Below, one piece after another: positions 1 to 17,022 of a stretch of DNA of 64,000 nucleotides. The translations under genes were made by a program, and so were the position numbers. Below the pieces are notes generated by a model. It worked only from the letters and a program-made list of their open reading frames with translations. It did not search any database and was not told the origin of the DNA. Each line of letters begins with the position of its first letter. Position 1 is the first letter of the stretch. Source of the stretch: Flavobacterium sp. IB48 (GTDB taxonomy: Bacteria > Bacteroidota > Bacteroidia > Flavobacteriales > Flavobacteriaceae); assembly GCF_016405855.1 (NCBI RefSeq), contig NZ_JAEFCA010000005.1, positions 124,001 through 188,000 on the forward strand, read 5' to 3'.

Positions 1-123
1 GTCCATTAACTTAAAAAGAATATCCGAAGGGGTTTTAAGGTTAGAAAAAAACTGTGGGATGGTCATTCATTTTTTTGCATGGCACAGAATAGCATTTGTC
101 AGTCAGCATAAGCTGATATGACT

Positions 124-1416
124 CTAAGGTTGCTCAAAAACATCCCTGAATTGATATAAAATCCGCTCAAGCAAACGCAAATCTTCCGTTATAATTTCTG
201 CTCTTCCTTTCATTTCTTGCCGAAACAAAATTTCTTTCTTGTAAGAGCTGCGCAATCCATCAGGTAAAGCCACATCCAATAGCAAATTGCCATCCTTATC
301 TGGAATCAGAGAAATATTCTTAACCTTGCCGTGCAATACGCCAAACTCTCTGTCTGGATAATTTGCCAGTCTGACATTTACTTTCTGTCCCACTTTTATT
401 TTTCCTGAATTCAAAACAGGCGCTTTTACTTTTCCTATATAACCATTTTTTAAAGCAGGAATTACTGAAAACACATTATCCCCAGCATTTATCGTTTGGC
501 TTTCTGTCCATACCTGCAGGAATGTAACAACTCCTCCTACAGATGCTTTTACCGTATAATTCAGCTCCCAGTCTTTTATTGCTTTTTTTAGCCGATAAAA
601 AGACTGCATTGTACCACGCCGCAGGTTGGCATTCTCTTTTGCATTGCTTATAGAGGAGCTTTGGCTATATTTTCTGTTATCTATCAAAGACGATTCGAGA
701 TTAGAAATAGATGTCAAAATGCCTTTATAGTCTTTTCGGGCCTGAAGATATCCTAAATTCTTGGTCTCCATCTCTTGAACTGAAATGATTCCTTTATTGA
801 AAAGGGTTTCAAAACGGGCAATTTCATTTTTTTTGAGTTGCAGTTCCCCCTCGCTTAAAGCTTTTTGCTGCTGCAGAATTTTCAGCCGCTCCTGTATCTG
901 ATTTTTTTCAGATAACTGCGCTCTGCTTTCAACTTCAAAAGGATGCAGATTTTCATTTAATTTCTGTGCCTGATAGTCTTCTTGAAAAGCGGCATACGCA
1001 TTTTCAATTTCTCCAAATTGTGCATTTTCAAGCAGCTTAAACGGAAAATCTATCTTTGTGCCGCTAATGCTATAATCATTGATTATTTTTTTTAATAAAA
1101 AAACATTTTTATAGCTGGCTGCATTTTCAATAACTGCCAAAATTGCATCTTTCTCCACGATTGATTTATCTTTAACCAAAATTGCTTCAATACGCCCTGA
1201 TGTTTTTGAAACTATTCTTTCTGGCGGAATATTGGTTGTAATTACGATTTCGGCATTGACAACATCCGGATATCTAATAAACCAAGACACAAAAAAAAGC
1301 ATAAAAAGTATTGCAAATATTAAAACGGCTCCCCAACGTATCATCCAGTGCGGCATTTTGGTAAGGATGTCCTGAACTTCTTCGCTTCTTAATTCAATTT
1401 GTTTATTTTCGGGCAT
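124..1416 (-). CDS. HlyD-family membrane fusion protein of the lanthipeptide exporter
   Basis: Periplasmic adaptor that should couple the inner-membrane ABC exporter encoded just upstream to an outer-membrane channel. The 430-residue protein has a short cytoplasmic N-terminus, one membrane segment at about residues 27-49, a lipoyl-like half around 65-95, a long coiled coil at about 150-260, and a second lipoyl/beta-barrel part (AGDNVFSVIP, then GQKVNVRLANYP). This is the usual order for HlyD/CvaA adaptors of bacteriocin exporters. It is the last gene of the operon, 36 bases after the ABC gene. No outer-membrane TolC-type gene is present in the window, so a housekeeping channel is probably used. 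Confidence 0.9.
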   Translation of the reverse strand: MPENKQIELRSEEVQDILTKMPHWMIRWGAVLIFAILFMLFFVSWFIRYPDVVNAEIVITTNIPPERIVSKTSGRIEAILVKDKSIVEKDAILAVIENAASYKNVFLLKKIINDYSISGTKIDFPFKLLENAQFGEIENAYAAFQEDYQAQKLNENLHPFEVESRAQLSEKNQIQERLKILQQQKALSEGELQLKKNEIARFETLFNKGIISVQEMETKNLGYLQARKDYKGILTSISNLESSLIDNRKYSQSSSISNAKENANLRRGTMQSFYRLKKAIKDWELNYTVKASVGGVVTFLQVWTESQTINAGDNVFSVIPALKNGYIGKVKAPVLNSGKIKVGQKVNVRLANYPDREFGVLHGKVKNISLIPDKDGNLLLDVALPDGLRSSYKKEILFRQEMKGRAEIITEDLRLLERILYQFRDVFEQP

Positions 1417-1452
1417 ATCGTGTCAAGTCTTTTAAATTAGTTTGGATGCGGA

Positions 1453-3672
1453 TTAAGAGCCTAAATTTAACTGGTTCCTAACCAATTCATAATAAGCCCC
1501 CTGAAATCCCACCAATTCCTGATGGGTTCCAACCTCAATAATCTGCCCCTTGTCCAGAACCACTATCTTATCCGCATTGATCACTGTGCTTAATCTATGG
1601 GCTATGATTACCACTGTCCTATTTTCGAAAAAAATTGATAAATTCTTCATTATAACTTTTTCATTGTTGGTATCCAAAGCTGAAGTTGCCTCATCAAAAA
1701 ATAAAATTTCAGGATCTTTATATACGGCTCTCGCAATAAGCAATCTTTGTTTTTGTCCTGTGCTCATACCTGTGCCTTCACTTCCAATTTTAGTATTATA
1801 GCCTAACGGAAGCCCTAAAATATAGCCAGATATATTGGCCACTTCTGCCGCATATTTTAATTTATCCTTATCAATCTTATCAGCTCCAACTGCAATATTA
1901 TTAGCGATGGTGTCATTAAAGATAAAACCTTCCTGCATTACTGTTCCAATATTATTGCGCCATACTTTTTGAGCAATGTTTTTTAAATCAATGGCATTGT
2001 TCTGTTCATCCAGCGATTTAGGCATCAGTGTAATTGCGCCATTTTCCAATTCATAAAACTTTAACAATAATTTCATCAGGGTGGATTTTCCGCTTCCGCT
2101 TGTACCGACAATAGCCGTTATTTTGTTAGCCGGTATCAGCAGATTTAAATTATCTAAAACGGTATTATTGGAACCTGCATACCGAAACGACAGATTATTA
2201 ATTAAAATATCGAATTGAGAAGGCAGTTCATGGGTCTGATATTCTTCCTGCTGGCTTTCATCTTCTTTTTCGTGAATTTCAGATAGTCTCGCCAGAGATA
2301 TTTTTGCGTCCTGAATTTCTCTCACAAAAGTGATGATTTGCACTATAGGTCCGTTTAAACCTCCAACTATACTGCTTATGGCGAGCATCATACCAAGAGT
2401 AATTTGTCCGTCAATAACAAATTTAGCAGATAAAAAAATTATAATTATATTCTTTATTTCATTAATAAAATTCGATCCCGCAATTTGGGCCTGTTCTAAA
2501 GCCAGCCTTTTAACTGATACTTTAAACAGTCTGGCCTGAATAAATTCCCAACCCCATCTTTTTTGCTTTTCAGCATTGTGAAGCTTGATTTCCTGCATTC
2601 CGCTTATTAATTCTATCACCTTGCTTTGCTCCTGACTTACTTCTGCAAACCTTTTGTAATCTAAAACCGATCTTCTTTTTAAAAACAATATGATCCATAA
2701 AAAATAAAAGGCGCTTCCTAAGAAAAAAACAACAAATATTTTGGCGCTGTAATAAGCTAGCACACCGCCCATAATAATCATGTTGACTATCGAAAATAAA
2801 ACGGTTAGCGATGAAGAAGTTAAAACATTTTCAATTCTCTGATGATCGTTAATGCGCTGCATAATATCGCCAGTCATCCTGACATCAAAAAACGAAATAG
2901 GCAGATTCATTAATTTTATGAAAAAATCCGAAATCAAAGATATATTGATTCTTGCCGACATATGAAGCATAATCCAGCTTCGTATAAGATCCAGCGCAGT
3001 TTTACCAATAAATAAAAAAAGCTGGGCAAAGAGAATGAGATAAATAAAGTTGATATTCTGGTTCTGTATTCCAACGTCAACAATGCTCTGCGTCAAAAAT
3101 GGAAAAATTAACTGCAGCATTGTTGTTGCCAGCAATCCTACCGCTAACTGAACCAGAAATCTTTTATAAGGAATGATGTATCTAAATAATAATGAAAATC
3201 CAAATCTATTTTCTTCATGCCCCTTTTCTTCATTTTCGCTAAAAAGTGGAGTTGGTTCTAATAACAGCGTTATTCCTTCTTCGGTTTCACGATTTGAGTT
3301 GCTTCCTATCCATAATTTTATGAATTCTTCTTCATCGTATTCCAGTAAGCCAAATCCCGGATCTGATATAAAATATTTCCTATTCTTAACTTTATACAAT
3401 ACGACAAAATGGATTTTATTCCAGTGCAGGATGCATGGCAGGGGAATCTCGTCTAGTTTTTCGCAGCTAAGTTTTGCGCCTAATGTTCTAAAACCGATCT
3501 TTTCGCAAGCGTCACTCAATAGCAGTAAATTGCTGCCTTCTCGATTGGTTTCACTGTAAGTTCTTAAATCCTGAATATGAATAATTTTGCCATAATGTTT
3601 GGCAATAATTTTTATGCAGGTCGCTCCGCAATCTTTAGAGTCAGCCTGAATATAATTGGTGAATTTTTTCAA
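1453..3672 (-). CDS. C39 peptidase-containing ABC transporter (bacteriocin processing exporter)
   Basis: Exports a double-glycine-type precursor peptide and removes its leader. Residues 1-130 form a C39 cysteine protease: Gln9, catalytic Cys15 (KDCGATC), His88 (IHFVVLY) and Asp104 (SDPGFG) are all present, so the protease should be active. A six-helix transmembrane domain follows at about 165-445. The ATPase has Walker A GTSGSGKST, signature STGQKQR, Walker B ILFFDEATSALD and an H-loop in IIAHRLS. The precursor at 11009-11179 ends its leader in Gly-Gly, matching C39 specificity. No separate LanP-type subtilisin is seen, so this protein is the likely leader peptidase. It begins 2 bases after the stop of the gene upstream. 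Confidence 0.95.
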   Translation of the reverse strand: MKKFTNYIQADSKDCGATCIKIIAKHYGKIIHIQDLRTYSETNREGSNLLLLSDACEKIGFRTLGAKLSCEKLDEIPLPCILHWNKIHFVVLYKVKNRKYFISDPGFGLLEYDEEEFIKLWIGSNSNRETEEGITLLLEPTPLFSENEEKGHEENRFGFSLLFRYIIPYKRFLVQLAVGLLATTMLQLIFPFLTQSIVDVGIQNQNINFIYLILFAQLFLFIGKTALDLIRSWIMLHMSARINISLISDFFIKLMNLPISFFDVRMTGDIMQRINDHQRIENVLTSSSLTVLFSIVNMIIMGGVLAYYSAKIFVVFFLGSAFYFLWIILFLKRRSVLDYKRFAEVSQEQSKVIELISGMQEIKLHNAEKQKRWGWEFIQARLFKVSVKRLALEQAQIAGSNFINEIKNIIIIFLSAKFVIDGQITLGMMLAISSIVGGLNGPIVQIITFVREIQDAKISLARLSEIHEKEDESQQEEYQTHELPSQFDILINNLSFRYAGSNNTVLDNLNLLIPANKITAIVGTSGSGKSTLMKLLLKFYELENGAITLMPKSLDEQNNAIDLKNIAQKVWRNNIGTVMQEGFIFNDTIANNIAVGADKIDKDKLKYAAEVANISGYILGLPLGYNTKIGSEGTGMSTGQKQRLLIARAVYKDPEILFFDEATSALDTNNEKVIMKNLSIFFENRTVVIIAHRLSTVINADKIVVLDKGQIIEVGTHQELVGFQGAYYELVRNQLNLGS

Positions 3673-3674
3673 AA

Positions 3675-5003
3675 TTAATTGTGTATGCTGATTATTTTCA
3701 ACTTAATATAATTTTTAAGTTTCGTTTTTAATAGTTCCGAAATTTCATTGACAGATTCCTGGTCATCATCTTCCAAATATTCTTTTACAGTTTCTGCGAG
3801 ATGAAAATAGGAAACCGGAATTTTTAGTTCCTCTAATAAAATTTCATCCAATTCATCCAATTCATATTCTCTAAAAGGCGCATTAAGCTCTTCAATTATT
3901 ATGCAGTCTTGATCTGAAGCAGATTCCTTTAGTTCAAAACCATTTAATTTTACAATCTTAAAATCCCTATTGTCGTTAAAAAAAACATCTATTTTTTTAT
4001 ACAGATCTACACTGTAGAGATCTCTTTTTAGCAAAAAGCGAGTCGAATCAAAGCTATCGTTTTGCAATTCAAGGTGAAATTCATCCAACAATTCCTGAAC
4101 AATTTCTGAATTTAGAATTTCAATTTCTGAATCCCTTCCATTAAACTCATTGATTAATGCTCCAAGATTTGCGTAAGATTCCGGATAAATTCTCATGATG
4201 TAGCTTTCCATAAATTTGCATATTACAGGCTCTTTTTTATAGTTCCCCAGCAAATGCAGATATGTTTTGTCAGGAACTTCATGAAAGTCAGCAAAACCGA
4301 AATATTCATTGTCAACCGGCATTTCAGGAAATAAAAATTCAACTTCCTGCTTCATTGATTCTGCGTGCTTGCAAAACAGAAGCTGCTCAAAAAACACATT
4401 AAAATGCAAACCGTTTATCTGGTCCCAGGAAACCTTATTGGCATCGACAAAATCAATGCTTTTTTCACAGTAGTCTTTAAAAAAACTCATATTATTTCCT
4501 CCTACAATACCCATATTGTATGAAATATTGCTTTGGTCGTTATGAAATTTATGCAATTCTTCTGGCAGATAAACCAATTCTGGATAAATGTCTTTCCAGA
4601 TGTTGCGGTAATACATATCCGTAACTTCCATGCTTTGAACAGCTAAATTTGAATTCTTAAATTGGTCTGTTAAGGAACTCCACACAAAAACATCGCCATC
4701 GACATGCAGAAAAGGTTCGTTTTGTTTTTGAAAAGTTTTGACTTTTGCAATTGCCCAAAAATCCTTTGGATAGCCATTGGCTTCGTCTAAAGTGACATGG
4801 ACTTTGGTATAGGGCAGCTTTAATTTTTCAATTAAAATTTTATAGCCGAAGCTGTCCGTATACAATTCTACATGATCATGATATCTAATGAGCTGATGAC
4901 AGCTCAAAATCCAGCTCATCCAATGGTATCGGTAAGAATACCATCCTCCGGAATTATCAAAATTATTTTGATTTCCGCTCCAGAAACTTTGTATAATTTT
5001 CAT
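3675..5003 (-). CDS. GT-A-like protein of the lanthipeptide operon, paralogue 1 (DUF6734-like)
   Basis: Function not established; I recall this family as DUF6734 but cannot verify the name. The N-terminal ~270 residues look like a GT-A glycosyltransferase: an opening MKIIQSFWSG, a DxD-type PFLHVDGDVFVW, an NMGIVGGNN segment (as in GT8/GT32 enzymes) and a late YLHLLGNYKK resembling their HxxGxxKP motif. The last ~170 residues are a separate acidic domain (LLKRDLYSV, DELDEILLEELKIPVSYF). No signal peptide or membrane segment, so cytoplasmic. It is paralogous along its whole length to the next gene upstream and lies between LanB and the exporter. Glycosylation of the lanthipeptide is an inference from fold and position. 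Confidence 0.75.
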   Translation of the reverse strand: MKIIQSFWSGNQNNFDNSGGWYSYRYHWMSWILSCHQLIRYHDHVELYTDSFGYKILIEKLKLPYTKVHVTLDEANGYPKDFWAIAKVKTFQKQNEPFLHVDGDVFVWSSLTDQFKNSNLAVQSMEVTDMYYRNIWKDIYPELVYLPEELHKFHNDQSNISYNMGIVGGNNMSFFKDYCEKSIDFVDANKVSWDQINGLHFNVFFEQLLFCKHAESMKQEVEFLFPEMPVDNEYFGFADFHEVPDKTYLHLLGNYKKEPVICKFMESYIMRIYPESYANLGALINEFNGRDSEIEILNSEIVQELLDEFHLELQNDSFDSTRFLLKRDLYSVDLYKKIDVFFNDNRDFKIVKLNGFELKESASDQDCIIIEELNAPFREYELDELDEILLEELKIPVSYFHLAETVKEYLEDDDQESVNEISELLKTKLKNYIKLKIISIHN

Positions 5004-5010
5004 TTTTTAT

Positions 5011-6351
5011 TCAATTAAAGCTGTGAATGCCAATGATTTTTAAAGTGATGTATATTTCAATTTTACCCTTTATGACAGCCTCCATTTCCTGTACGGCCTC
5101 CTGATGGTCCTCATCTTCCAAATACAGATTCATTTGGCTAATAAGATTGAAATAAGATATCGGAGCCAGCAGCTCCTCCATGAGAATTTCATCTATCTGA
5201 TCTAACTCAAAAATTCTTAAATCTGAATTGCATTCTTCTATTTCAAGTGTTTTTATTTCATCTTTTTCCACAATTTTAAAGCCAGGCAAACGAACTATTA
5301 TAAAATCATTTTCTTCTTCTAAAAAATTTTTATAGTCGCTATTCAAACTAACATTATTAAGGTCTCTTTTTAAAAGAAAATCAGATTCCGAAAATTTATT
5401 CTCTCGAACATCCGACTCAAACTCCTCTAATAATTGAGCTACAATATTATCATTCAAAGTATGAACCTTCCCTATTGCAGCATCATCTTCTAAGAGATAT
5501 AGTTTCATTAGCCGGGAGTAATATTTCGGGTAAAATTTCATTACATATCCTTCCATTGCTTTGCACACAGAGATGTTTCTTTTAAAATCTCCCAATAAAT
5601 GCAGATACGTTTTTGGGTGGGGAACATGATGGAAATCTCCAAAACCTTTATATAAATTATCTTCCCAAATTTCAGAGAATAAATATGCTATCGGCAAACT
5701 ATCGATCTCGGCCATTTTATAAAAAAGAACCTGTTCAAAAAAAATATTAAAATTAAATAGATTTATATCAGTCCAGATCCGTTTGTTCTTTTCAACAAAC
5801 TCAAAAGCTTTTTTTGCATATCGTTTGTAAAATGAAATGTCTGTGCCTCCGGCAATTCCCATATTAGCGCTAAAATTTGAAGCATTCTTGCCAAAATCCT
5901 CAATCTCAACGGGAATATAAGATAAAAAAGGAACTATACTATTCCACATAAAATGATAGTAATTTGTGGTTATTTCCTTATTTTGGGCAATTAATGCAGC
6001 TGTTTTTAAATTATTTGAAAATTCGCTCCATACAAAAACATCGCCATCAACATGAATAAACGGTTCTTCCTGTAGTGAATAAACTTTAATCTTTGCCAGA
6101 GCCCAAAGCTCCGCCGGATATTCATTAAGACCATTTAAAACCACATGGACTTTCGTATAGGGCAATTGCAGCTTGCCAATGAGAATCTCATATCCAAAAT
6201 CATCCGTATAAAGCTCTACCCTATCATAATACTTCACTAATTGATTTACACTGAGTATCCATCCCATCCAATGATACTGAGACTTGGACCAGCCGTACCC
6301 GGCATCTATCTTCTTCTGATTTCCGGACCAAAAGCTTTGTATGATTTTCAT
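5011..6351 (-). CDS. GT-A-like protein of the lanthipeptide operon, paralogue 2 (DUF6734-like)
   Basis: Tandem paralogue of the neighbouring 442-residue protein, 446 residues. The same landmarks occur in order: MKIIQSFWSGNQ, LPYTKVHVVL, PFIHVDGDVFVW (DxD), NMGIAGGTDISFY, TYLHLLGDFKR, then the acidic C-terminal domain with DFLLKRDLNNV and DEILMEELLAPISYF. Both copies keep the presumed metal and donor residues, so neither looks like a decayed duplicate. They may act on different substrates or as a heteromer. It starts 12 bases after lanB ends, so the genes are probably co-transcribed. Glycosyltransferase activity is inferred from motif resemblance only. Confidence 0.75.
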   Translation of the reverse strand: MKIIQSFWSGNQKKIDAGYGWSKSQYHWMGWILSVNQLVKYYDRVELYTDDFGYEILIGKLQLPYTKVHVVLNGLNEYPAELWALAKIKVYSLQEEPFIHVDGDVFVWSEFSNNLKTAALIAQNKEITTNYYHFMWNSIVPFLSYIPVEIEDFGKNASNFSANMGIAGGTDISFYKRYAKKAFEFVEKNKRIWTDINLFNFNIFFEQVLFYKMAEIDSLPIAYLFSEIWEDNLYKGFGDFHHVPHPKTYLHLLGDFKRNISVCKAMEGYVMKFYPKYYSRLMKLYLLEDDAAIGKVHTLNDNIVAQLLEEFESDVRENKFSESDFLLKRDLNNVSLNSDYKNFLEEENDFIIVRLPGFKIVEKDEIKTLEIEECNSDLRIFELDQIDEILMEELLAPISYFNLISQMNLYLEDEDHQEAVQEMEAVIKGKIEIYITLKIIGIHSFN

Positions 6352-6363
6352 TCGATTAGGGAG

Positions 6364-9219
6364 TTAATTCGCTAAGTTTTTAAATTTCAATTGATTCAGA
6401 TAGCATTTAGTCAGATAATAGGATTTGAATTCATTGAATCTTTGTTTTTCATTAAAATGCCTGTTCATGCTCATGTGAATTACAAGCCATATATAAGAAG
6501 CCGCCGGAATTGTATTTTGCTTTAATTCTTCTGACAATCTGCTTTTTAGTTCTGCATCATTTACAAAACTGGTATAATTATAGGTCTCAGCGCTAAATCT
6601 TATTTTAGCATACTCTTCATTAAATTTCTTTCTTAAATCTGCAGTCAGCTTAAATTCTTTGGAGAAATTTTCAATACAGTTTTCGCAATAATGAATCATC
6701 TGATCATTTGTGAAGCCAGCTAGGTCTAGATAATTTATAATTTTATGCATAGCGACAATAGAATGCTCCGCAGAGTCGAGATCTTTCAGAATTACATTTT
6801 CTATCAGGTCCTTACTGTCTAAATTGAAAATAAACTCGGCAAAACGCATTAATGTTGAACCTCCATATCTGAAAATTTCCGGTTCATAAGGTAAGATCTG
6901 ATACTTTTTAATCATATTCCTCAACTTTAGATTATCCACAAAATTTATAATATCTCTCTTATTATCAACCGAATCAGTTTTAAAGCGCAATCGTAATTGA
7001 CGGCCATTGCTGTCATAATGGACAAAGAAAAATTCTGTAAATTTATTTGCGGTGCAGAGTTCGCTGTATATGCTTTTTAAAATATCATTGTCTGCATAAG
7101 AATTACAGTACGCCTCAAAATAGATCCAATCGGAAACCAGCGGGATATTCGCATTGCCAGCGCTGTTTATAACAATATCTCTAGTAAATTCTTCCGATTT
7201 ATAATGGCTGTTTTTTACGCTCACAATCAGCTCATGCGCATAATTGCCAGAATCATTCTCTACTGCAGGATGAAATTGTTCGTAAATATTCTCTGAGACA
7301 TAACAATAATCCCTAGTTTTAAGACTGTCATAAATAATTTTTAGTTCTTCATCTTTGGATGCATCAATAATTGAATTTCCTTTCAGGTAGTAAAAATTAA
7401 CCGTTCTGCTAAAATCGAACTTCCGTATTTTTTCAAGAAAATAGCTTTTAAATTCTTCAAAACTATAATTATTGTCTACTAAAAGAATCTGAGCCGGCGC
7501 CAAAAGTATGTTGCTTTCTAAATATATTCTAGGAACAAAATCTCTGAAGCATGAATAGGCATTAAAATCGAAATTGATGCCATATATCTCTTCATTATAA
7601 ACTTCAAAATCACACAAAAACTTGTATAGCTCAGACTCCGACATCTTAGGATTGATAGCTGATACTTTTTTGGGTTTAATCTCTTTTTGATGTTCTTTTG
7701 ACACCAGACGCATTTTTCCGCTTTCCAAATAGGCATATATATCTGATGCAAATATTGGATTTTTACTTTCTGCATAAGAGGTATTGATCGGGATGCAGTA
7801 ATCGTACAATTGCTCTTTGGGCGAAATATTAATGCTTCTAAAGTTTCCAACACAATTTACATCTGCAAGGATTATGTTCTTATTGGCATTCTTCTCATAA
7901 TCAATTATTTCTCTGCATAATTCGGAATTGACTTCACTGAATCGCGAAATGATATCGACTGCAGAGCCACCGCCCAAACCGCGCATAAATACAATCTCTT
8001 CACCTGTGTCTTTGCTTTTTAAAATCTCTATTAAAACATTAAAAGTAAGCGGGAGCTGTTTTTTCTTTTCATCAAGATTGGCTTCTCCCGGCAGATTTAG
8101 AAATAATTCTTTTTCTGTTGAGGCTATAATTTTACAGAAAATATCCTGATGGAGTTTCAGAATAAAATCTGAATTATCATCCTGATAACGGATTCCCGAG
8201 TAAGGGTTAAATATTGAATTCAAGGGAATGAAACCATCATTATAGTTTTCTGCCACTTTAGCTATAAATTCGTTAATTTTTCCCGTAACAGGCTTTGTAT
8301 TAAAGTTGTAGCTTAAAATAAAATCTATATACTTTTCTATTAGCGGCTGAATATTTGAATTGACGGAACCAATCTGCAGATCAAAAGAATTAATAGAATG
8401 GGAAAAGCGTTTATTTTCAGTTTCTTTGAAAAATAAATCCTGTTCCAGAATATATTGATCATTAAATAGCTTCGCGTCTTTACTGCCATGCAAGTAGTAA
8501 CTTTTTTTATTTATCAGATCAGAGAAATAAACTGGGAAACTGGCCTCTAGTTTTTTTCCATAGGGATTAAACAGAAAATTTTCAATCAATAATCCAACAT
8601 CAATTAACTGCAGCAGATAAACCTCAACTTCATCTGCATCAAACCCTTCCAACAGTAAATCATTTATTACTCGACCGATATCTGCACTCTCTCTGAATTT
8701 TTCCAACAGCCATTCTAGATTGTCATCATAATCAAGCTCAACAAAATTTATCTCAATTCTATCATTTTTTTTCGCCTCAGAATTATAAAAGCCAATTTTA
8801 TCGCTACCTAAAAAATGCAGCGAAGGATTTATTGAATACTTAAGTCCCTTCCAGTCTGCCTTAAGTTTGCTATTCTGGTGCAAAGACAAAAAAAGATTAT
8901 CATGGGTAATGGATAGCTTAATGCTTTTTGATTTGGGCAACTTTGTAGAAGTTCCCCAATTTGCAAGGCCTACGCTACTAAATAGTCCAAATGGCGTTGG
9001 ATTAAAATGCGCTCTGGTATAATATTTTGATAGTGAACTTTCAATCTTATCTCTTTTATTCTTTTTTACATCATGATAAAGGCTGTTTGAAGAAATTAAT
9101 ACTGAAAGCTGAAATAAATCGTTTGCATCAAAAAAATCTACTACATCATTTCGATGGATGCTATATGATTGAACCGAAAAGTTTGTAGCCCTCTTGATAA
9201 TTGCGTCAAAAAAAATCAT
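6364..9219 (-). CDS. lanB: Class I lantibiotic dehydratase LanB, full length
   Basis: Dehydrates Ser and Thr of the precursor core using glutamyl-tRNA, giving Dha and Dhb. The 951-residue protein has both parts of the family: an N-terminal glutamylation domain (family hallmark NPTPFGLFSSVGLANWG at about 73-89) and a C-terminal elimination domain of the thiopeptide-type bacteriocin biosynthesis family from about residue 690 (DWIYFEAYCNS, then EFFFVHYDSNGRQLRLRFK). Length near 950-1000 residues matches full-length LanB rather than the split enzymes of thiopeptide clusters. It starts 47 bases after the lanC stop. Cytoplasmic, presumably working with the LanC encoded just upstream. Confidence 0.93.
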   Translation of the reverse strand: MIFFDAIIKRATNFSVQSYSIHRNDVVDFFDANDLFQLSVLISSNSLYHDVKKNKRDKIESSLSKYYTRAHFNPTPFGLFSSVGLANWGTSTKLPKSKSIKLSITHDNLFLSLHQNSKLKADWKGLKYSINPSLHFLGSDKIGFYNSEAKKNDRIEINFVELDYDDNLEWLLEKFRESADIGRVINDLLLEGFDADEVEVYLLQLIDVGLLIENFLFNPYGKKLEASFPVYFSDLINKKSYYLHGSKDAKLFNDQYILEQDLFFKETENKRFSHSINSFDLQIGSVNSNIQPLIEKYIDFILSYNFNTKPVTGKINEFIAKVAENYNDGFIPLNSIFNPYSGIRYQDDNSDFILKLHQDIFCKIIASTEKELFLNLPGEANLDEKKKQLPLTFNVLIEILKSKDTGEEIVFMRGLGGGSAVDIISRFSEVNSELCREIIDYEKNANKNIILADVNCVGNFRSINISPKEQLYDYCIPINTSYAESKNPIFASDIYAYLESGKMRLVSKEHQKEIKPKKVSAINPKMSESELYKFLCDFEVYNEEIYGINFDFNAYSCFRDFVPRIYLESNILLAPAQILLVDNNYSFEEFKSYFLEKIRKFDFSRTVNFYYLKGNSIIDASKDEELKIIYDSLKTRDYCYVSENIYEQFHPAVENDSGNYAHELIVSVKNSHYKSEEFTRDIVINSAGNANIPLVSDWIYFEAYCNSYADNDILKSIYSELCTANKFTEFFFVHYDSNGRQLRLRFKTDSVDNKRDIINFVDNLKLRNMIKKYQILPYEPEIFRYGGSTLMRFAEFIFNLDSKDLIENVILKDLDSAEHSIVAMHKIINYLDLAGFTNDQMIHYCENCIENFSKEFKLTADLRKKFNEEYAKIRFSAETYNYTSFVNDAELKSRLSEELKQNTIPAASYIWLVIHMSMNRHFNEKQRFNEFKSYYLTKCYLNQLKFKNLAN

Positions 9220-9266
9220 TCTTATACTGTTTATTGATTGTAATTCAGGATTGGTAAAATGCTTTA

Positions 9267-10427
9267 TTAATGTAAATTCACCAGTTCAAGCCACCTGTGG
9301 TCAATCTTGTTTTCCAACGTTAGCAAGATTAAGCCTAGACCAACTGAGCCTTCTAAAAGGTTTGTTTCTGCATGATAGCTGCCTTTTTCATAAGCTACAA
9401 ACTGCTGATAATCGGAAGTTTGCATCTTCACTATATTCATCCATTTTTGAATGTCTTCCGTAAAAGCAGTTTTATGTTTTTTGGAAGCCAAATGATATTG
9501 AATCGCTATTCCGGCTGATCCATGACATAATCCAAAATCATTTACGAAGGATTCTTGAAGTGATATTTTTTGGCACGATGCTATTAGCTCTTCCGATTCT
9601 TTTATTAGATGATCATCATTTAAATAAATTCCACAATTATACAAGGAGTTGGCAATTCCAAAATCACCCTGACACCAAGACAATCTTGAATTGACAATTG
9701 TATTTGAATGTATTAAAAGTAAATTTGGATAAAACTGCTTCGAGTTTTCATCAAATTTTTTATAGGATTTTAAATAAGAAATGCATTTTTGCAAAGAGGA
9801 CGTGATATCTGTTTTCAATTCTGAAAAATTGCTTTGCAGATAAAGCAAAAAATTTAAATAACCGGCAATGCCATGAGCAATGCCAAAATAAATGCAGAAT
9901 CGATCATCATTATCTAGCGCCACTTCTGAAATTAGAATCTCCTCTAAGCTATTATTTATTTTATAAATTAAATTTTCAGAAAAATGGTTTAATGCCGCTA
10001 TATTCTTTTCATTCTTATCAGATTTGCATCTTTCAATGAAATACATTGCAATTCCCATTGAACCATGCAGGAAATCATAATGATTCGCTTCACAGCAAAT
10101 CTTCAAATCTTCTAATAAAACGGAATCGATGCTTTCAAAATATTCTGCATCGATATCAATTATATCATCTTCCAAACTCAGCAGCACGAGACCAAATCCG
10201 GCCAATCCAGAACACAGTGTGGTTATAGACGACTCATTTTCAAGCATATCATTTACTTTCTCTACAATTGTTGTTAATTTTATCAGATATTCATCCCGTT
10301 TGTAAACTGAATGCATTTTACTGTAAAAAAAAGCCATTCCGGATAGACCTGTCAATAGTCCAATCCTATTTTCATCTTCAAGAGATTCCCAAATATTTTT
10401 TTCAACCTTTAGTATTGCATCTTCCAT
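9267..10427 (-). CDS. lanC: Lanthionine synthetase C family cyclase (LanC)
   Basis: Zinc enzyme that adds Cys thiols to dehydrated residues to form lanthionine and methyllanthionine rings. All three zinc ligands are visible: Cys252 (WCQGDFG), Cys301 and His302 (LCHGSAG). His195 lies in GIAHGIAGY, matching the acid/base His of NisC. Seven glycine motifs spaced through 386 residues (for example GLLTGLSG, CSGLAGFG, LHGSMGIA, LEGSVGLG) fit the alpha/alpha toroid. The gene lies between the small secreted protein and lanB, as expected for a class I cluster in which LanB and LanC are separate proteins. Confidence 0.95.
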   Translation of the reverse strand: MEDAILKVEKNIWESLEDENRIGLLTGLSGMAFFYSKMHSVYKRDEYLIKLTTIVEKVNDMLENESSITTLCSGLAGFGLVLLSLEDDIIDIDAEYFESIDSVLLEDLKICCEANHYDFLHGSMGIAMYFIERCKSDKNEKNIAALNHFSENLIYKINNSLEEILISEVALDNDDRFCIYFGIAHGIAGYLNFLLYLQSNFSELKTDITSSLQKCISYLKSYKKFDENSKQFYPNLLLIHSNTIVNSRLSWCQGDFGIANSLYNCGIYLNDDHLIKESEELIASCQKISLQESFVNDFGLCHGSAGIAIQYHLASKKHKTAFTEDIQKWMNIVKMQTSDYQQFVAYEKGSYHAETNLLEGSVGLGLILLTLENKIDHRWLELVNLH

Positions 10428-10470
10428 ATAGCAAAAAAATTAACACAGTTAAATGTAGAAACTAAGATTT

Positions 10471-10854
10471 CTAATCTTTTTTTATGCAAAAGCCCCTTTG
10501 AAAAGTTTTCTCAGCAGTGTTCTCTTTGTTTTTATACAATACAGATACCGTAAAACAATCATCTTCAGTATTAATTATTGTGTATATGAGCCTGTCGCCG
10601 GGATATATAGGTTCCGAACCCGTATTTTTTGTACACACAACTTCATATTTGCATTCCGACAGCCAATTTAAGCTCCAGGTAATTTCTAATTTACCATCAG
10701 TGTAATTTTCCTGAATTGAATCTTTCATAATAGCATATTGTCCGGGATGAGCCGGAGAATAATACTTTACATTTTTAAATCTTGCACAATTTAAACTTTG
10801 GGAATACCCTGCAAATCCAATTAAGAAGGCAGCAAGAAGCATGATTTTTTTCAT
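10471..10854 (-). CDS. Small secreted protein of the lanthipeptide operon, function unknown
   Basis: A 127-residue protein with a clear signal peptide (MKKIMLLAAFLIGFAGYSQS), so about 107 residues in the periplasm or outside. The mature part has five Cys (near 23, 68, 75, 100 and 122) and a WSLNWLSECKYEVVC segment. That segment resembles small secreted Bacteroidota proteins with a 'W-x(n)-CeY' core, but I do not recognise a characterised family. It lies between the precursor gene and lanC in the same orientation. Its position suggests self-protection or help with maturation, but nothing in the sequence proves either. No LanI or LanFEG immunity genes are visible, which makes it the best immunity candidate here. 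Confidence 0.7.
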   Translation of the reverse strand: MKKIMLLAAFLIGFAGYSQSLNCARFKNVKYYSPAHPGQYAIMKDSIQENYTDGKLEITWSLNWLSECKYEVVCTKNTGSEPIYPGDRLIYTIINTEDDCFTVSVLYKNKENTAEKTFQRGFCIKKD

Positions 10855-10924
10855 TATGTAATTTTTGTTTTTTAAGCGCTGCCATGATTTCTCACGACAG
10901 TAATTTTATTTATTGGTTTCAGTC

Positions 10925-10956
10925 AAAGGATATTTTCATATCTGAAAATACCCTTT
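10925..10956 (-). terminator. Hairpin between the precursor gene and the modification genes
   Basis: Two 14-base arms (10925-10938 and 10943-10956) pair with one mismatch around a TATC loop. It lies 53 bases after the lanA stop and 71 bases before the next start. On the transcribed strand no clear T-run follows, so it may be a leaky terminator or an mRNA-stabilising stem that lets the precursor be made in excess over the enzymes. Confidence 0.5.
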
Positions 10957-11008
10957 GCAGAAATTTAAATTCAGGTTTTAGACTTTATTTAATTTCAAAA
11001 TCTTCGCT

Positions 11009-11179
11009 TTAGCAGCTAAAGACCATTGTAGTGTAGCAATTAATTGGCCATACGGACGTCTGGTTGCATGAATTTGCTCCAGAGTTTCCGCAAGTTCCGC
11101 TTCCGCCAGTGATTGTAGATTTTTCCTGATCTGATAATTTAACAACTTTTAAACTTTTTAAACTTAGTTTCTTTTTCAT
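11009..11179 (-). CDS. lanA: Class I lanthipeptide precursor peptide, GG leader
   Basis: A 56-codon ORF (ATG at 11179, TAA at 11009-11011). The leader is 26 residues: a Lys/Leu-rich start (MKKKLSLKSLKVVKLS), then DQEKSTITGG. This matches the Bacteroidota pattern of K/L-rich leaders ending in I-x-Gly-Gly. The 30-residue core begins SGTCGNSG and ends in SC. It has four Cys (core positions 4, 12, 22, 30), nine Ser/Thr (1, 3, 7, 11, 15, 16, 24, 25, 29) and no Lys or Arg. Up to four thioether rings are possible, including one at the last residue. It is the first gene of the lan operon, and its Gly-Gly suits the C39 exporter. The core is rich in Gly, Asn, Ser and Thr, with one Trp-Pro pair. Confidence 0.88.
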   Translation of the reverse strand: MKKKLSLKSLKVVKLSDQEKSTITGGSGTCGNSGANSCNQTSVWPINCYTTMVFSC

Positions 11180-11295
11180 CTTTAATTTTGTTTGATGTTT
11201 AACATTATTTTATAGTTCCATCTTAACTAAAAACCTATTCTAAACCACGTCGACTTATGATAAAGACAGGTCAATTTTTCAATCAAGACTGGATT

Positions 11296-11348
11296 CAAAA
11301 ATAGGCTAGTTACAATTTAAGTCTTATGCATTTTTTATGCAATTTTAA
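11296..11348 (-). promoter_or_regulatory. lanA promoter with paired TTATGCA boxes
   Basis: On the minus strand, a Bacteroidota -7 element TATTTTTG lies at 11303-11296, placing the transcript start near 11289 and leaving a leader of about 110 bases. No TTG is found at -33. Instead, two TTATGCA boxes (plus-strand 11324-11330 and 11335-11341) are spaced 11 bases apart beginning 20 bases beyond the -7. The same layout occurs before the S41 gene. The rest of the 315-base gap 11180-11494 shows no other clear element. It is shared with the divergent XRE gene. Confidence 0.6.
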
Positions 11349-11494
11349 TATGTTATTGTTTTTATTTCACACATTATATTGCTTTACAAATAAAAAATAT
11401 CACAAAAAAGAAACAAAAAAACAAAAATCATTCTAAACAAATCTGTTGGTATATTCTTATAAATTGTTTATCATTGCTTAAAAAAAACTGAGAA

Positions 11495-11815
11495 GTGATT
11501 AAAATAAAATTGCAGAAAATGCGATTGCAGAAACAATTGTCGCAGGAAGAAATTGCCGATCTCATTGGTATGACGCAGTCAACCTATAGCCGAAAAGAGA
11601 AGGGGATTACAAATATAACGATGTCGGAATGGATAAAAATCGCTAAAGTTTTGGGTGTCGAAAAAGACGAAATATACCAAGCAGGCATTTCCAAAAAGGG
11701 TATGTTTAAGGTGTTGGAAAATCTAGATATTCACCCTGATTTTTTGGATAAAATCAAGTTTTTGCAAAAAGAAAATTTTGAACTCCAAGAAAAATTGAGG
11801 AAACTTCAAAAATAG
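11495..11815 (+). CDS. XRE-family HTH regulator, copy 1
   Basis: A 106-residue DNA-binding protein with an N-terminal helix-turn-helix of the Cro/C1 (XRE) type (LSQEEIADLIGMTQSTYSRKEKG, about residues 15-37). A second part ends in a short coiled coil (KIKFLQKENFELQEKLRKL). The GTG start is chosen because the second copy at 13978-14322 has the same GTG with the same GAAGTG context and the reading frame is conserved from that codon. A downstream ATG at 11519 is possible. It is divergent from lanA, about 315 bases away, and is a likely regulator of the lan operon. The first ~62 residues are almost identical to copy 2. Confidence 0.85.
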   Translation: MIKIKLQKMRLQKQLSQEEIADLIGMTQSTYSRKEKGITNITMSEWIKIAKVLGVEKDEIYQAGISKKGMFKVLENLDIHPDFLDKIKFLQKENFELQEKLRKLQK

Positions 11816-11882
11816 CACTCCCGAAATTGCACTTTCTTTTTTAATGGAGCTGGAAAAAAGATAAAGTTGGCGCATTGCTTTT

Positions 11883-13571
11883 TCAATTTCCCCTCTTAGC
11901 AAACAATAAGGCCCTTTCAAGGAATTCGTCTCTTTTCTGCTGAATCCCTAAAATTGTCTGTTTCACTTTAATATCAGGCACTATTCCAATTCGCTGGGTT
12001 TCTTTTTTATTGGGATAGAAAACACCGTAGCTGCTAAATTGCGTCCAAAATCCATTTATGATTTCAAACCGTACAACTCCTCCGTCTGCTCCTGAGGTTT
12101 GGGAGCCAATTACTGTTGCGTCTGGTGCCGTCTGAAAATTCATTGCGGTATATTCGCCATGGCTTTGGGTAACTTCATTTACTAATATAATGACCTTTCC
12201 CTTATAATAGTCAGGATTAATCTTTCCGCATTTCTCGATTTCTTTTCTCCAGACAAATCTGCCGGGCGCGCTTAAATCGCTGTCGATAAATTTCACAAAT
12301 TCACGTGGTTCCGGATTCAGATATTCTGATATTATATAATTGGTGCCATTTGAATTATTTCTCAAATCAAAAATAATTGCCTTACTATTCAGACATTCTT
12401 TCATAATTGCGGGAACATCACCTTCCGCAATTGCACTCATATCGATATAGGCCACATTATTATCCAGAAATTTCCATTTCTCTTTTTCAGCCGCCTTCAT
12501 TCTTATATTCTGGTAGGGATATCGCTTTATATACTTTACAGCTTTTTCTCCTGCCCTATTATATTCAATTTGCAGAGAATCTGACTTTCCATTAAAAATC
12601 GCCCAGTAAATATTACGCAGGATAGCCGCTTCGTTAGACCCCTCCACATACTTTCTGTTTTCCTTGATTAAAAAATCAATGGTTTTTCCATCCACTTTTG
12701 TAATAACATCCCCTATTCTTATATCGGAAACAGTTGCCAAGGAGTCATTTTTCAAACCTATAACTACTGCTTTTCTATCAATAATTTTAAAATCAGCCGG
12801 TACAAACTTATCTCCAAATTTTTCAAACATTTTACCTGTTCCAATAGATGCATGGCTGTCATTTAATTTAATCGATAATTCCCGCATTGCTAAATGAAAT
12901 TCAAGCTCACTTTTTGCATTTACAAATTCTGGCAAAATGTCGACAAGGACTTTATCCCAATTTTCATCCATTTGATATTTATAGGGAAAAAAATAAGCAA
13001 CATAATTCCAATATCTGAACAAGGCTAAAAGCCTCATTTTTTTGTCAGACCAATCAAATTTTGAATATTTAACTTCATTGGTAAACTGCAGGGGGGATGC
13101 ATTTGGGTCGGATGCTTGAAAGGACACATAAAAGTTGAGACCTTGAAATCTATTTGCTTCAATGGCTTCTAATTTTTCCGACAGTTCTTTCGAAAAAAAA
13201 ATTCTATTCTTAAACCAGGCAAAATCTAAATTTTTGTCAAAATAATTGTTTTTAGGCGATATTTCCGGCAGGCTTCCTCTTTTAACTTCCCCCAAAGAGC
13301 CAATCCACCTGCAAATAGCATCTGAAAATTCTTCTTGTGTTTGTATTTTATCTACTTCTTGCAAAATCATAAATAACTGATTATCCCAATTTTGGCTGCC
13401 ATTGGCAACATTTGGATGGTAATATTTCAAAAAACCCCAAACTTTAGCTATTGCATGCAGCTTTTCAATTTCAGTTAATGCATTGTTACGAGAATCACTA
13501 CCAGTTCTCAATGTTGCCGAATGGGCATATACCCCGGCTAAAAACATAAAAAGCAAAATAATTTTTTTCAT
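11883..13571 (-). CDS. Secreted S41-family serine peptidase with PDZ domain
   Basis: A C-terminal-processing/tricorn-type protease of 562 residues. A signal peptide (to about residue 17) sends it to the periplasm. A helical N-terminal region (about 30-250) is followed by a PDZ domain (about 255-330, RIGDVITKVDGKTID) and the S41 catalytic core. The core has FDLRNNSNGT and NEVTQSHGEYT, in which Ser470 is the expected nucleophile, followed by IGSQTSGADGG. It is convergent with XRE copy 1 and downstream of XRE copy 2. Its promoter copies the lanA promoter layout, so it is likely co-regulated with the lanthipeptide. Substrate unknown. Confidence 0.9.
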   Translation of the reverse strand: MKKIILLFMFLAGVYAHSATLRTGSDSRNNALTEIEKLHAIAKVWGFLKYYHPNVANGSQNWDNQLFMILQEVDKIQTQEEFSDAICRWIGSLGEVKRGSLPEISPKNNYFDKNLDFAWFKNRIFFSKELSEKLEAIEANRFQGLNFYVSFQASDPNASPLQFTNEVKYSKFDWSDKKMRLLALFRYWNYVAYFFPYKYQMDENWDKVLVDILPEFVNAKSELEFHLAMRELSIKLNDSHASIGTGKMFEKFGDKFVPADFKIIDRKAVVIGLKNDSLATVSDIRIGDVITKVDGKTIDFLIKENRKYVEGSNEAAILRNIYWAIFNGKSDSLQIEYNRAGEKAVKYIKRYPYQNIRMKAAEKEKWKFLDNNVAYIDMSAIAEGDVPAIMKECLNSKAIIFDLRNNSNGTNYIISEYLNPEPREFVKFIDSDLSAPGRFVWRKEIEKCGKINPDYYKGKVIILVNEVTQSHGEYTAMNFQTAPDATVIGSQTSGADGGVVRFEIINGFWTQFSSYGVFYPNKKETQRIGIVPDIKVKQTILGIQQKRDEFLERALLFAKRGN

Positions 13572-13583
13572 AGATTGAGTTTA

Positions 13584-13625
13584 ATAGCCTGCAAAGCCAA
13601 TTAATGTTTTTTTGAAGAAGCATAT
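13584..13625 (-). pseudogene. Possible remnant of a signal-peptide coding sequence
   Basis: The stretch just before the S41 start resembles, base by base, the signal-peptide coding part of the small secreted protein gene at about 10805-10848. The shared blocks are CCTGCAAA, CCAATTAA and GAAGCAT in the same order and near-equal spacing. It is not in a usable frame. It may be debris from a duplication that also copied the promoter and the XRE gene. The remainder of the 406-base gap 13572-13977 holds the S41 promoter and small ORFs that I do not believe. Confidence 0.3.
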
Positions 13626-13689
13626 TGTAAAGAAAATAATTTGCTTGACAGATCGATGTGCAGAAAAACATTCATACAGTACCTCAAAT

Positions 13690-13753
13690 CAAAAATACTA
13701 TATAAACGGTATGGATATTATGCAATTTATATGCGTTTTTAAACCCTTATGCA
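13690..13753 (-). promoter_or_regulatory. S41 gene promoter with TTATGCA boxes
   Basis: On the minus strand, TATTTTTG (13697-13690) is a -7 element about 120 bases before the S41 start. Plus-strand TTATGCA at 13718-13724 and the variant ATATGCG at 13729-13735 are spaced 11 bases apart and begin exactly 20 bases beyond the -7, as in the lanA promoter. A further TTATGCA lies at 13747-13753, and an inverted copy (TGCATAA) at 13844-13850. Over 25 bases the two promoters' box regions match at 21 positions. Confidence 0.55.
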
Positions 13754-13977
13754 ATTCAGCTTTTTCAGCAGCCTGCAAGATCAAATAAGGTCGAATATGA
13801 GTGGATTTGCACATGGATTGATTCCCTACATTTAATAGAATTTTGCATAAAAGCACAAAAGCATTTATAGAGCTTGCCAAATGGCGTAAACTCCAAAGCT
13901 ATATCTATAGCTAAAAGTCCGAAAGGAAATGACAGTGTGAGGTTCGACATCGACTTTCAAACGGGCTCCTTATCAAT

Positions 13978-14322
13978 TCATTGCAAATTACAGCGCTCTT
14001 TTTGAAGTATTCTTATTTTTTCCTTAAGCTCATAATTTTTCCTCTGCAAAAAATCGATTTGCTCCAAAACGTAAGTAACAATATGGTGATTCTGATTCTC
14101 TGGCACATCTAGCATATCTTTTCTGGAAATGCCCTCCTGATAGATTTCATCTTTTTCGACACCCAAAACTTTAGCGATTTTTATCCATTCCGACATCGTT
14201 ATATTTGTAATTCCCTTCTCTTTTCTGCTATAGGTTGACTGCGTCATACCAATCAGATCGGCAATTTCTTCCTGCGACAATTGTTTCTGCAATCGCATAA
14301 TCTGCAATTTTACCTTAATCAC
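13978..14322 (-). CDS. XRE-family HTH regulator, copy 2
   Basis: A 114-residue paralogue of the regulator at 11495-11815. The HTH region is identical or nearly so through LGVEKDEIYQ, and the proteins diverge after about residue 65 before ending in a similar coiled coil (IDFLQRKNYELKEKIRIL). A GTG start is again used. The identical recognition helices imply the same DNA target, probably the TTATGCA boxes before lanA and the S41 gene. The different tails could alter partner choice or dimerisation. It lies upstream of the S41 gene in the same direction, with a 406-base gap that contains the S41 promoter. Confidence 0.85.
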   Translation of the reverse strand: MIKVKLQIMRLQKQLSQEEIADLIGMTQSTYSRKEKGITNITMSEWIKIAKVLGVEKDEIYQEGISRKDMLDVPENQNHHIVTYVLEQIDFLQRKNYELKEKIRILQKERCNLQ

Positions 14323-15621: not shown

Positions 15622-17022
15622 CTATTTGCCGATGCAGAAATTAGCAAAAATATTCCCCAATAATTCGTCATTAGAAACCTGACCAGTAATAAGTCCAAAT
15701 TGGTATAAAGCTTCTCGAATATCAAGTGCCATTAGGTCGCTTGAAAGACCAGATTCTAAACCAAATTTTACTTTCTGAATTTCATCCAATGCTTTTAACA
15801 AAGAATCATAATGTCTCGTATTGGTAACAATTGTTTCATTGTTTCGCAGTGCGCCAGTATTTACAAAGGATAATAATTCATTTTTTAAATCCTCTACTCC
15901 TATTTTTTCTTTTGCTGAAATTAATAGCAATTTTGCATTTAAATTTTCTAACTGATTAGTTATATTAGCTACTTCATCAGCAGATAAAATATCTTTTTTA
16001 TTAACCACAATAATTAGCGGTTTTAGCGGATATTTATTCTTAATCTGTTCAATTTCATTTACAAATTCAGAACTTGATGTTTGGAACTTTAATCCGTCAA
16101 ACAAATAAATTACAACCTGAGCTTGTTCTATTTTTTCGAAAGTTTTCTTGATTCCGATACTTTCTACAACATCTTTAGTATCACGAATTCCTGCAGTATC
16201 AATAAATCTAAATCCGATGCCACCAATTACCAATTCGTCTTCAATGGTATCACGAGTTGTTCCGGCAATGTCAGAAACAATGGCACGCTCTTCGTTTAAT
16301 AAAGCATTTAACAAAGTTGATTTTCCAACGTTTGGTTCACCTACAATCGCAACTGGAATTCCATTTTTAATTACATTTCCAACAGCAAACGAATCAATTA
16401 AACGTTTTAAAACAAATTCAATTCTATTTAATAATTCATGAAATTGTGTTCGGTCTGCAAATTCTACATCTTCTTCTGCAAAATCCAATTCCAATTCAAT
16501 TAAAGAAGCAAAATTTAAAAGCTCTTCTCTTAGTTTCGCAATTTCATTACTGAATCCGCCACGCATTTGCTGCATGGCAATTTGGTGAGAAGCTTCATTA
16601 TCTGACGAAATCAAATCTGCCACTGCTTCTGCCTGTGATAAATCCAGTTTTCCATTTAAAAAAGCTCTCAATGTAAATTCACCAGCATCAGCCATTCTAC
16701 AGCCATTTCGAAGCAATAACTGAATAATCTGCTGCTGAATATACGTTGATCCGTGACAAGAAATTTCAATCGTATCTTCTCCCGTATAAGAATTCGGACC
16801 TTTAAATACCGAAACCAAAACTTCGTCTAATGTTTTACTTCCGTCTACAATATGCCCTAAGTGAAGCGTATGTGTTTTCTGTTTCGTTAAATCTTTGTTT
16901 TTAATAGATTTAAACACCGAATTGCCAATTGTGATGGCCTCGGCTCCAGAAATACGAATTATGGCAATGGCTCCAGCTCCCGAAGGCGTAGCCAAAGCAA
17001 CTATAGAATCTTGATTTATCAT
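15622..17022 (-). CDS. mnmE: tRNA modification GTPase MnmE (TrmE)
   Basis: With MnmG, installs the carboxymethylaminomethyl group on U34 of certain tRNAs. The 466-residue protein has the N-terminal formyl-THF-binding domain (IVALATPSGAGAIAIIRISG), a helical domain and an inserted GTPase with GEPNVGKSTL, DIAGTTRD, DTAG and NKKD. It ends in the family's FCIGK, including the essential Cys. The ATG at 17022 is chosen because the family starts at this point and because the -7 element lies directly before it; an upstream in-frame ATG at 17085 would add 21 unrelated residues. Confidence 0.97.
   Translation of the reverse strand: MINQDSIVALATPSGAGAIAIIRISGAEAITIGNSVFKSIKNKDLTKQKTHTLHLGHIVDGSKTLDEVLVSVFKGPNSYTGEDTIEISCHGSTYIQQQIIQLLLRNGCRMADAGEFTLRAFLNGKLDLSQAEAVADLISSDNEASHQIAMQQMRGGFSNEIAKLREELLNFASLIELELDFAEEDVEFADRTQFHELLNRIEFVLKRLIDSFAVGNVIKNGIPVAIVGEPNVGKSTLLNALLNEERAIVSDIAGTTRDTIEDELVIGGIGFRFIDTAGIRDTKDVVESIGIKKTFEKIEQAQVVIYLFDGLKFQTSSSEFVNEIEQIKNKYPLKPLIIVVNKKDILSADEVANITNQLENLNAKLLLISAKEKIGVEDLKNELLSFVNTGALRNNETIVTNTRHYDSLLKALDEIQKVKFGLESGLSSDLMALDIREALYQFGLITGQVSNDELLGNIFANFCIGK

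Follow-up and report, generated by a model that had tools for sequence, protein, structure and literature searches.

What does a gene cluster of the LanB/LanC type make when two genes of a Pfam family of unknown function, DUF6734, are placed between its dehydratase and its exporter? The question is raised by a 64,000-nucleotide stretch of the Flavobacterium sp. IB48 genome (contig NZ_JAEFCA010000005.1, positions 124,001 to 188,000 of the forward strand; hereafter the window), in which a short precursor gene is followed on the minus strand by lanC, lanB, the two DUF6734 genes, a C39 exporter gene and an HlyD gene. Here, we propose that the product of this locus is probably a secreted class I lanthipeptide to which glycosyltransferases steered by the leader add a sugar as well; we infer the chemistry throughout. 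With somewhat less assurance, we favor the broader reading that the DUF6734 proteins are glycosyltransferases guided by the leader (a GT8-like domain fused to a RiPP recognition element, RRE) and would, as a family, decorate both lanthipeptides and LanB-independent peptides with double-glycine (GG) leaders across Flavobacterium, the product of this locus being a glycosylated class I lanthipeptide.

The precursor gene (11009..11179, minus strand, ATG start) encodes 56 amino acids (aa), comprising a 26-aa GG leader, MKKKLSLKSLKVVKLSDQEKSTITGG, which is rich in Lys and Leu and ends in ITGG, and a 30-aa core with Cys at positions 4, 12, 22 and 30, nine Ser/Thr and neither Lys nor Arg; the calculated monoisotopic mass of the unmodified core is 3131.26 Da. 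This 56-codon open reading frame (ORF) agrees in every respect with the original prediction, made from the letters of the window, and its place as the first gene of an operon with lanC, lanB, C39 exporter and HlyD genes, all on the minus strand, was confirmed as well. Within the 64-kb window it is the only ORF matching a strict GG-leader rule (E-x5-GG within a short ORF lying outside larger ORFs), and a search of its own genome with the precursor returned itself as the sole match, with no second copy. The nearest relatives were found in L036 (78% identity), a locus in genome G088 that is called the same species, and in L076 (68% identity) of Flavobacterium collinsii. Both retain all four Cys, and the three cores have in common C..NSG.NSCN.TS.WPINC plus the terminal Cys. 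Nucleotide differences among the three genes are concentrated at third codon positions, with ratios of nonsynonymous to synonymous substitution (dN/dS) of 0.10 (0.169/1.62) between the window and L036 and 0.14 (0.238/1.65) between the window and L076.

Related clusters were collected from 249 genomes of the genus, 22 of which had a LanB match, and from a genome-contig scan (26 loci). Seventeen distinct close clusters, all found through LanB, were compared, namely the window, L031-L038, L076, L078, L079, L080, L081, L084, L086 and L089. Second copies of these (L077, L082, L083, L085, L087 and L088), two F. collinsii fragments that carry parts of LanB (L090 and L094) and more distant LanB loci among L013-L030 and L091-L101 were left out. 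lanC lies beside lanB in all 17 clusters (truncated in L084), and a GG-leader precursor is present in 16, the exception being L084 with its truncated lanC. Because close relatives keep all four Cys at dN/dS values of about 0.10-0.14 and a GG-leader gene is found in 16 of the 17 clusters, the precursor ORF is, on this comparative evidence, a real coding sequence under purifying selection with conserved Cys.

Among 25 precursors of this leader type, 22 were aligned (one each of L031, L032/L077 and L080 remained unaligned); 15 of them contain CN..S in the core and 19 have Glu at position -8. Membership of the window precursor in a named NCBIfam leader family was rejected, as its scores were below the curated cut-offs of TIGR04149 (19.7 vs 25) and NF038153 (lant_leader_L1a; 11.4 vs 22), which were passed by none of 10 relatives scanned. 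Scored with the pinensin leader model, the L078 precursor reached 17.0, below the cut-off of 24. L034 contains a precursor-like ORF (5208-5330) whose core, AYWTLFYQKC, is no longer than 10 residues.

The same genome has a second RiPP-type locus (ribosomally synthesized and post-translationally modified peptide) on contig C11 (L108, C11:863000-882900), in which a split LanB of 733 and 281 aa lies at 8693-11744 of the locus and GG-type short ORFs at 1579-1785, 1873-2067 and 6748-6918. We regard it as extremely unlikely that the true substrate is encoded elsewhere, for example in this split-LanB locus, and that the ORF at 11009-11179 is incidental. Another gene with an elimination domain does lie on C11, as do further short ORFs of the GG type. 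However, LanB pieces and short ORFs of its own are present at the C11 locus, the lan clusters of relatives also hold a precursor with the same leader type, and the only LanC gene found in the genome (the sole PF05147 match) is that of the window, L108 having none of its own.

The full class I pathway claimed by the original prediction was borne out by Pfam, and precursor, lanC and lanB genes recur together in related clusters. LanB (6364..9219, minus strand, 951 aa) is full length, with both glutamylation and elimination domains (PF04738, E 5.1e-35; PF14028, E 7e-34), and its nearest solved relatives are 9g04 (profile E 2.6e-42) and NisB (E 2.3e-12). LanC (9267..10427, minus strand) matches PF05147 (E 1.2e-39); its H185, C252, C301 and H302 are invariant in all nine sequences aligned, and C252, C301 and H302 fit the Cys, Cys and His zinc ligands of NisC. 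They are accompanied by an ABC exporter with an N-terminal C39 peptidase (1453..3672, minus strand; PF03412, PF00664 and PF00005) and an HlyD-type membrane fusion protein (124..1416, minus strand; PF13437, E 1.3e-13).

With regard to the elimination half of LanB, loss of any of R786, R826 and H961 of NisB is reported to block elimination (PMC4979651). An alignment with NisB places R786 and R826 at R745 and R784 of the window LanB, both invariant in 8/8 sequences; H915, which is likewise invariant in 8/8 and lies within a conserved IHMSMNR block aligned to 9g04, is probably the counterpart of H961. The glutamylation half was examined at the positions of the NisB residues R83, R87, D299 and R464 of that domain. 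R83 and R464 are kept in the window LanB as R69 and R426. On the other hand, two positions count against ordinary chemistry: that of R87 is Asn in 8/8 LanBs of this clade (Ser in L089 from Aquimarina), and D299 is not conserved in the clade. Because of these two differences, glutamylation by the LanB of this clade may be altered. In the extreme case the clade's LanB would install a modification other than standard glutamyl-tRNA dehydration and the peptide would be no lanthipeptide, which is in line with the loss of D299 and with Asn in the whole clade vs Arg in 9/9 other distinct Bacteroidota LanBs aligned at the R87 position (11 rows, two being duplicates). However, both LanB domains, the equivalents of R83 and R464 and the elimination residues are kept, LanC accompanies LanB in all 17 clusters and its metal-site residues are invariant, and we consider this case very unlikely.

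If LanB and LanC act as in a class I lanthipeptide pathway, conserved residues suggest where rings may close. The three closest cores keep Ser/Thr at S7 and S11 (before C12), at T15 and S16 (before C22) and at positions 24 and 25 (before C30). The sole Ser/Thr preceding the first Cys in the L076 core is an adjacent Ser, from which a ring could hardly be formed. Because L076 thus lacks a non-adjacent Ser/Thr before that Cys, three thioether rings would be the conservative count for the product, although the cores of the window and L036 would allow a fourth, joining S1 and C4. Of the up to four rings suggested previously, the one at C4 lacks the support of conservation, so that four is an upper bound only.

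The original prediction was incomplete with regard to the rest of the operon. The genes it named are present and the lanthipeptide pathway it proposed is supported, but it did not mention a 127-aa protein gene or the two DUF6734 genes (3675-6351) in the same run, and its interpretation omitted both the two predicted RRE-glycosyltransferases and a recurrent S41 peptidase. The first DUF6734 protein (5011..6351, minus strand; PF20508, E 6.6e-109) is predicted to consist of a GT-A domain (residues 1-286) and an RRE-like C-terminal domain (about 350-445). The second (3675..5003, minus strand; PF20508, E 6.8e-106) is 49-50% identical to the first. Both genes match PF20508 (unknown function) far above the cut-off, with nothing else of note in Pfam, and they sit between lanB and the exporter gene with gaps of only 12, 7 and 2 bases. 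In the L034 cluster, three predicted transferase-type genes were observed, two of DUF6625 and one of DUF6734.

Structure models were made with AlphaFold2 for the 5011-6351 protein only. The second of them, based on 28 sequences, reached a mean confidence (pLDDT) of 92.2 and a pTM of 0.90. It matched glycogenin 3v8y (Z 12.9, root-mean-square deviation (rmsd) 3.9 over 211 residues) and LgtC 1g9r (Z 11.9), and all 50 matches listed were GT-A-type transferases with glycogenin on top; Foldseek matches were topped by blood-group and alpha-1,3-galactosyl transferases at E about 1e-5. Residues H100, D102, D104, H251 and K257 are invariant in 28/28 DUF6734 sequences and fit the DxD and HxxGxxK motifs of GT8, the family of glycogenin. 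We thus have high confidence in the prediction that the DUF6734 protein has a glycogenin-like GT-A fold with an invariant DxD. The first model, based on six sequences, had a pLDDT of 61.6 overall and 71-86 in blocks 341-440. Its residues 1-286 also matched glycogenin, and its residues 352-442 matched the leader-bound RRE of TbiB1 (5v1u_D, Z 9.1, rmsd 2.6, 83/83 residues), the C-terminal domain further matching TbtB 6ec7 (region 242-355) with a Z of 8.9. Residues 351-436 of the second model show the same PqqD-like order of strands and helices. Searched with the profile of this domain, the PDB gave a single match at E<=10, to a lasso chaperone of the PqqD family that is not significant (E 0.098). 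Because the match in the first, weaker model is joined by this shared order and by the genomic context, we have fair confidence that the C-terminal domain is, as predicted, RRE-like.

The genomic context was examined across the genus. DUF6734 was matched in 32 of the 249 genomes (31 above the cut-off) and in 0 of 14 control genomes. Surroundings were fetched for every match with E below 1e-40, a single broken copy (G088:C1:3098808-3099655) being left out, and for three weak ones; weak-score places in 12 other genomes did not enter the contrast. Long forms (420 aa or more, n=20 stretches) were distinguished from short forms (330 aa or less, without the C-terminal domain, n=11). A GG-leader ORF satisfying the strict rule was present in 17/20 fetched stretches with long forms and 0/11 with short forms (Fisher p 4.3e-6), and without the five lan loci the contrast was 12/15 vs 0/11 (p 4.9e-5), although these stretches share ancestry and the p values are hence not true probabilities. 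Counted as misses were L117, in which inspection by eye shows a GG peptide that has Gln at -8, L113, in which a GG leader starts a 444-aa ORF, and L128.

Among the 15 long-form loci outside lan clusters, eight (L110, L112, L115, L118, L119, L120, L127 and L129) have a VKOR-thioredoxin gene together with C39 and HlyD genes, two (L113 and L114) have C39 and HlyD without VKOR, and five (L116, L117, L123, L124 and L128) have no exporter. The eight VKOR loci hold Cys-rich GG-leader peptides alongside DUF6734, some with DUF6625 as well, and look like clusters for disulfide-bonded, perhaps glycosylated, bacteriocins. Each of L116, L117, L123 and L124 has a gene for a 51-75 aa peptide within about 420 bases of DUF6734. 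The leaders of this peptide family end in MGG or LGG, and its cores begin with YQ.P.LC in the pattern YQ.P.LC...YYKC.

Several observations weigh against a sugar-transferring role of DUF6734 in lanthipeptide synthesis. DUF6734 was found in only 5/17 related clusters (the window, L031, L032, L034 and L036), and by eye no core feature separates these five from the rest. Counting the short-form L111, which has C39 and HlyD genes and GG peptides under a looser rule, changes the contrast outside lan loci to 12/15 vs 1/11 (p 0.001). The RRE match stems from the model with the lower pLDDT, and fold-search Z values of 7-8 are common without relation. No RRE was found among the 50 matches listed for the second model, a list that is filled by the glycosyltransferase domain and gives evidence neither way; a Pfam match to PqqD (PF05402) was found in 0/17 DUF6734 C-terminal domains. 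A profile-profile comparison of the C-terminal domain with the RRE region of LanB, a relationship that was rejected, returned nothing (probability 0.6 over 17 columns). Sequence profiles of DUF6734 match no glycosyltransferase, the likeness being one of fold only, and against solved structures its sequence gave only weak, unrelated-looking matches (a restriction enzyme, E 0.056; methane monooxygenase protein B, E 0.016).

One might suppose that the product is a plain class I lanthipeptide that carries no sugar, with DUF6734 acting elsewhere, for example on a cell-surface glycan for self-protection, or as a leader-binding scaffold. The lack of a sequence match to known glycosyltransferases agrees with such a role, and so does the fact that DUF6734 was unseen in the fetched stretches of 12 of the 17 related clusters, although four of these (L033, L076, L079 and L080) end at a contig end. 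However, long DUF6734 forms track GG-leader peptides even in clusters without LanB, the modelled protein has a predicted RRE-like domain, and both genes are packed within the operon, flanked by lanB and the exporter gene. We consider a product without sugar possible but unlikely, and continue to prefer the glycosylated class I lanthipeptide.

The remaining genes around the precursor may contribute to maturation, immunity or control. The 127-aa protein gene (10471..10854, minus strand), the product of which by eye has a signal-peptide-like N-terminus, adjoins the precursor also in L036 and L076. It has no Pfam family above the cut-off; a Pfam scan of its L076 relative gave a single weak match below the cut-off. 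A role in immunity would be a guess. One close paralogue (49% identity) is encoded elsewhere in the genome, in L109 (C11:705000-717000), beside S41, HlyD and C39 genes and a Cys-rich GG peptide. L109 shares its kinds of neighboring genes with the L035/L085 lanBC cluster, between such neighbors in both cases, and looks like a cluster that either never had or has lost lanBC. The S41 peptidase gene of the window (11883..13571, minus strand; PF03572, E 2.6e-15), also with a signal-peptide-like N-terminus by eye, has counterparts such that S41 genes are found in 12/17 related clusters. In L037, L038 and L086, a large gene occupies the same place, and the copy scanned (L087 = L038) is erythromycin-esterase-like (PF05139).

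A helix-turn-helix (HTH) regulator gene of the Xre type (11495..11815, plus strand; PF01381) is divergent from the precursor gene, and keeps this place and direction in the window, L036 and L076. The S41 gene of the window lies between two HTH genes (11495-11815 and 13978-14322) that closely resemble each other and are oppositely oriented; L036 likewise holds a second HTH copy at 16121-16489. Upstream of the precursor, the window, L036 and L076 conserve TA[TC]TTTTG, which fits the Bacteroidota -7 box TAnnTTTG, as well as AAGTCGAC[AG]TGGTTT, the exact window form of which is unique in the genome. The conserved 5' element AAGTCGACGTGGTTT (11242..11256, minus strand), with its only exact copy in the genome here, is a possible regulator site or RNA element. 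Its centre, GTCGAC[AG]TGG, is found also upstream of the L078 precursor and in none of 16 other stretches scanned; at two or fewer mismatches, the motif showed no excess in the genome (18 vs 65 for a reversed control), so that weight is given to exact, syntenic copies alone.

The history of the locus was traced by comparing window positions 133-13478 with L036 of G088. The operons are only about 70-72% identical inside flanks that are 98.2% and 95.3% identical, and judged from these identities the same chromosomal slot is occupied by very diverged operon versions. Reading frames of L036 are split in lanB, the second DUF6734 gene, C39 and HlyD. Because a neighboring MnmE-like gene of 487 aa is split as well, sequencing indels are the likelier cause, and the frames were left unjoined. 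A plasmid origin was rejected, positions 1-14000 of the window being without a match in a plasmid collection.

Taken in order, the proposed pathway would begin with binding of the 56-aa precursor through its leader. LanB would then dehydrate core Ser/Thr by the glutamyl-tRNA chemistry of its family, and LanC would couple Cys to the dehydrated residues, forming about three thioether rings that end at C12, C22 and C30 if conservation in three precursors is a guide, while C4 may be part of a fourth ring, take part in a disulfide or stay free. The two DUF6734 enzymes, for one of which the fold has been predicted, would each combine a GT8-like catalytic domain with an RRE-like C-terminal domain, and may bind the same leader and glycosylate the core with a nucleotide sugar as donor. 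The C39-ABC/HlyD pair would, as is familiar from these families, cleave after GG and export the product. Control of the operon probably lies with the divergent HTH gene, and our guess is that the 127-aa protein and the S41 peptidase serve in final trimming or self-protection.

Class I leaders that end in GG, together with C39 proteases, have been described in Bacteroidetes, from which only pinensins had been isolated at that time (Walker et al., 2020; PMC7268733). The window precursor resembles those precursors in its K/L-rich GG leader and in having LanB, LanC and a C39 protease in the cluster. The spacing LxLxXx5L is fitted by 19/22 leaders aligned here; unlike in the printed motif LxLxKx5L (PMC7268733), the Lys position is occupied by Asn in 20 leaders and by Ser in two, with 0/22 exact matches. 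Pinensins (leader family NF038180) are likewise class I lanthipeptides of Bacteroidota, but their LanB is made up of two separate proteins (PMC7268733) whereas a single 951-aa LanB is present here. A class I lanthipeptide cluster has also been reported for F. hungaricum Kb82 (PMC9076710). As to sugars, the accessible text of PMC7268733 names no glycosyltransferase for Bacteroidetes class I clusters, in contrast to the two predicted here. NAI-112 (class III) and cacaoidin (class V) combine a lanthipeptide with a sugar, as proposed here, but belong to other classes, and no glycosylated class I example is named in the available portion of PMC10373908. The glycocin enzymes SunS/ThuS are GT-A-fold enzymes glycosylating a bacteriocin precursor (PMC10373908), much as proposed for DUF6734; the present cluster differs in adding LanB/LanC and in a DUF6734 protein predicted to be glycogenin-like with an RRE-like domain.

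Fusions of an RRE to a glycosyltransferase, such as we predict for DUF6734, have been described (PMC7470986 and PMC12710340), although the Pfam family named for them in PMC12710340 is PF00535 and not PF20508. In the searchable text of PMC7470986, DUF6734 is absent, as are terms beginning with Bacteroid- or Flavobacter-; among the DUF mentions in that of PMC12710340 it is not named, nor do Bacteroidota or Flavobacter- occur there. The open-licence PMC literature yielded no paper on DUF6734, DUF6625, PF20508 or PF20330.

Thus, the peptide adds one member to the GG-leader class I precursors already reported in Bacteroidetes, a large and barely characterised group of Bacteroidota lanthipeptides, and what sets the locus apart is the two predicted RRE-glycosyltransferases. 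Of greater weight is that DUF6734 can now be assigned a function open to testing, namely that of a sugar transferase steered by the precursor leader. If this is true, the locus offers a modular enzyme for peptide glycosylation together with a candidate glycosylated class I lanthipeptide, for which class sugar attachment would be unusual, and DUF6734 would be a marker for glycosylated ribosomal peptides in Bacteroidota.

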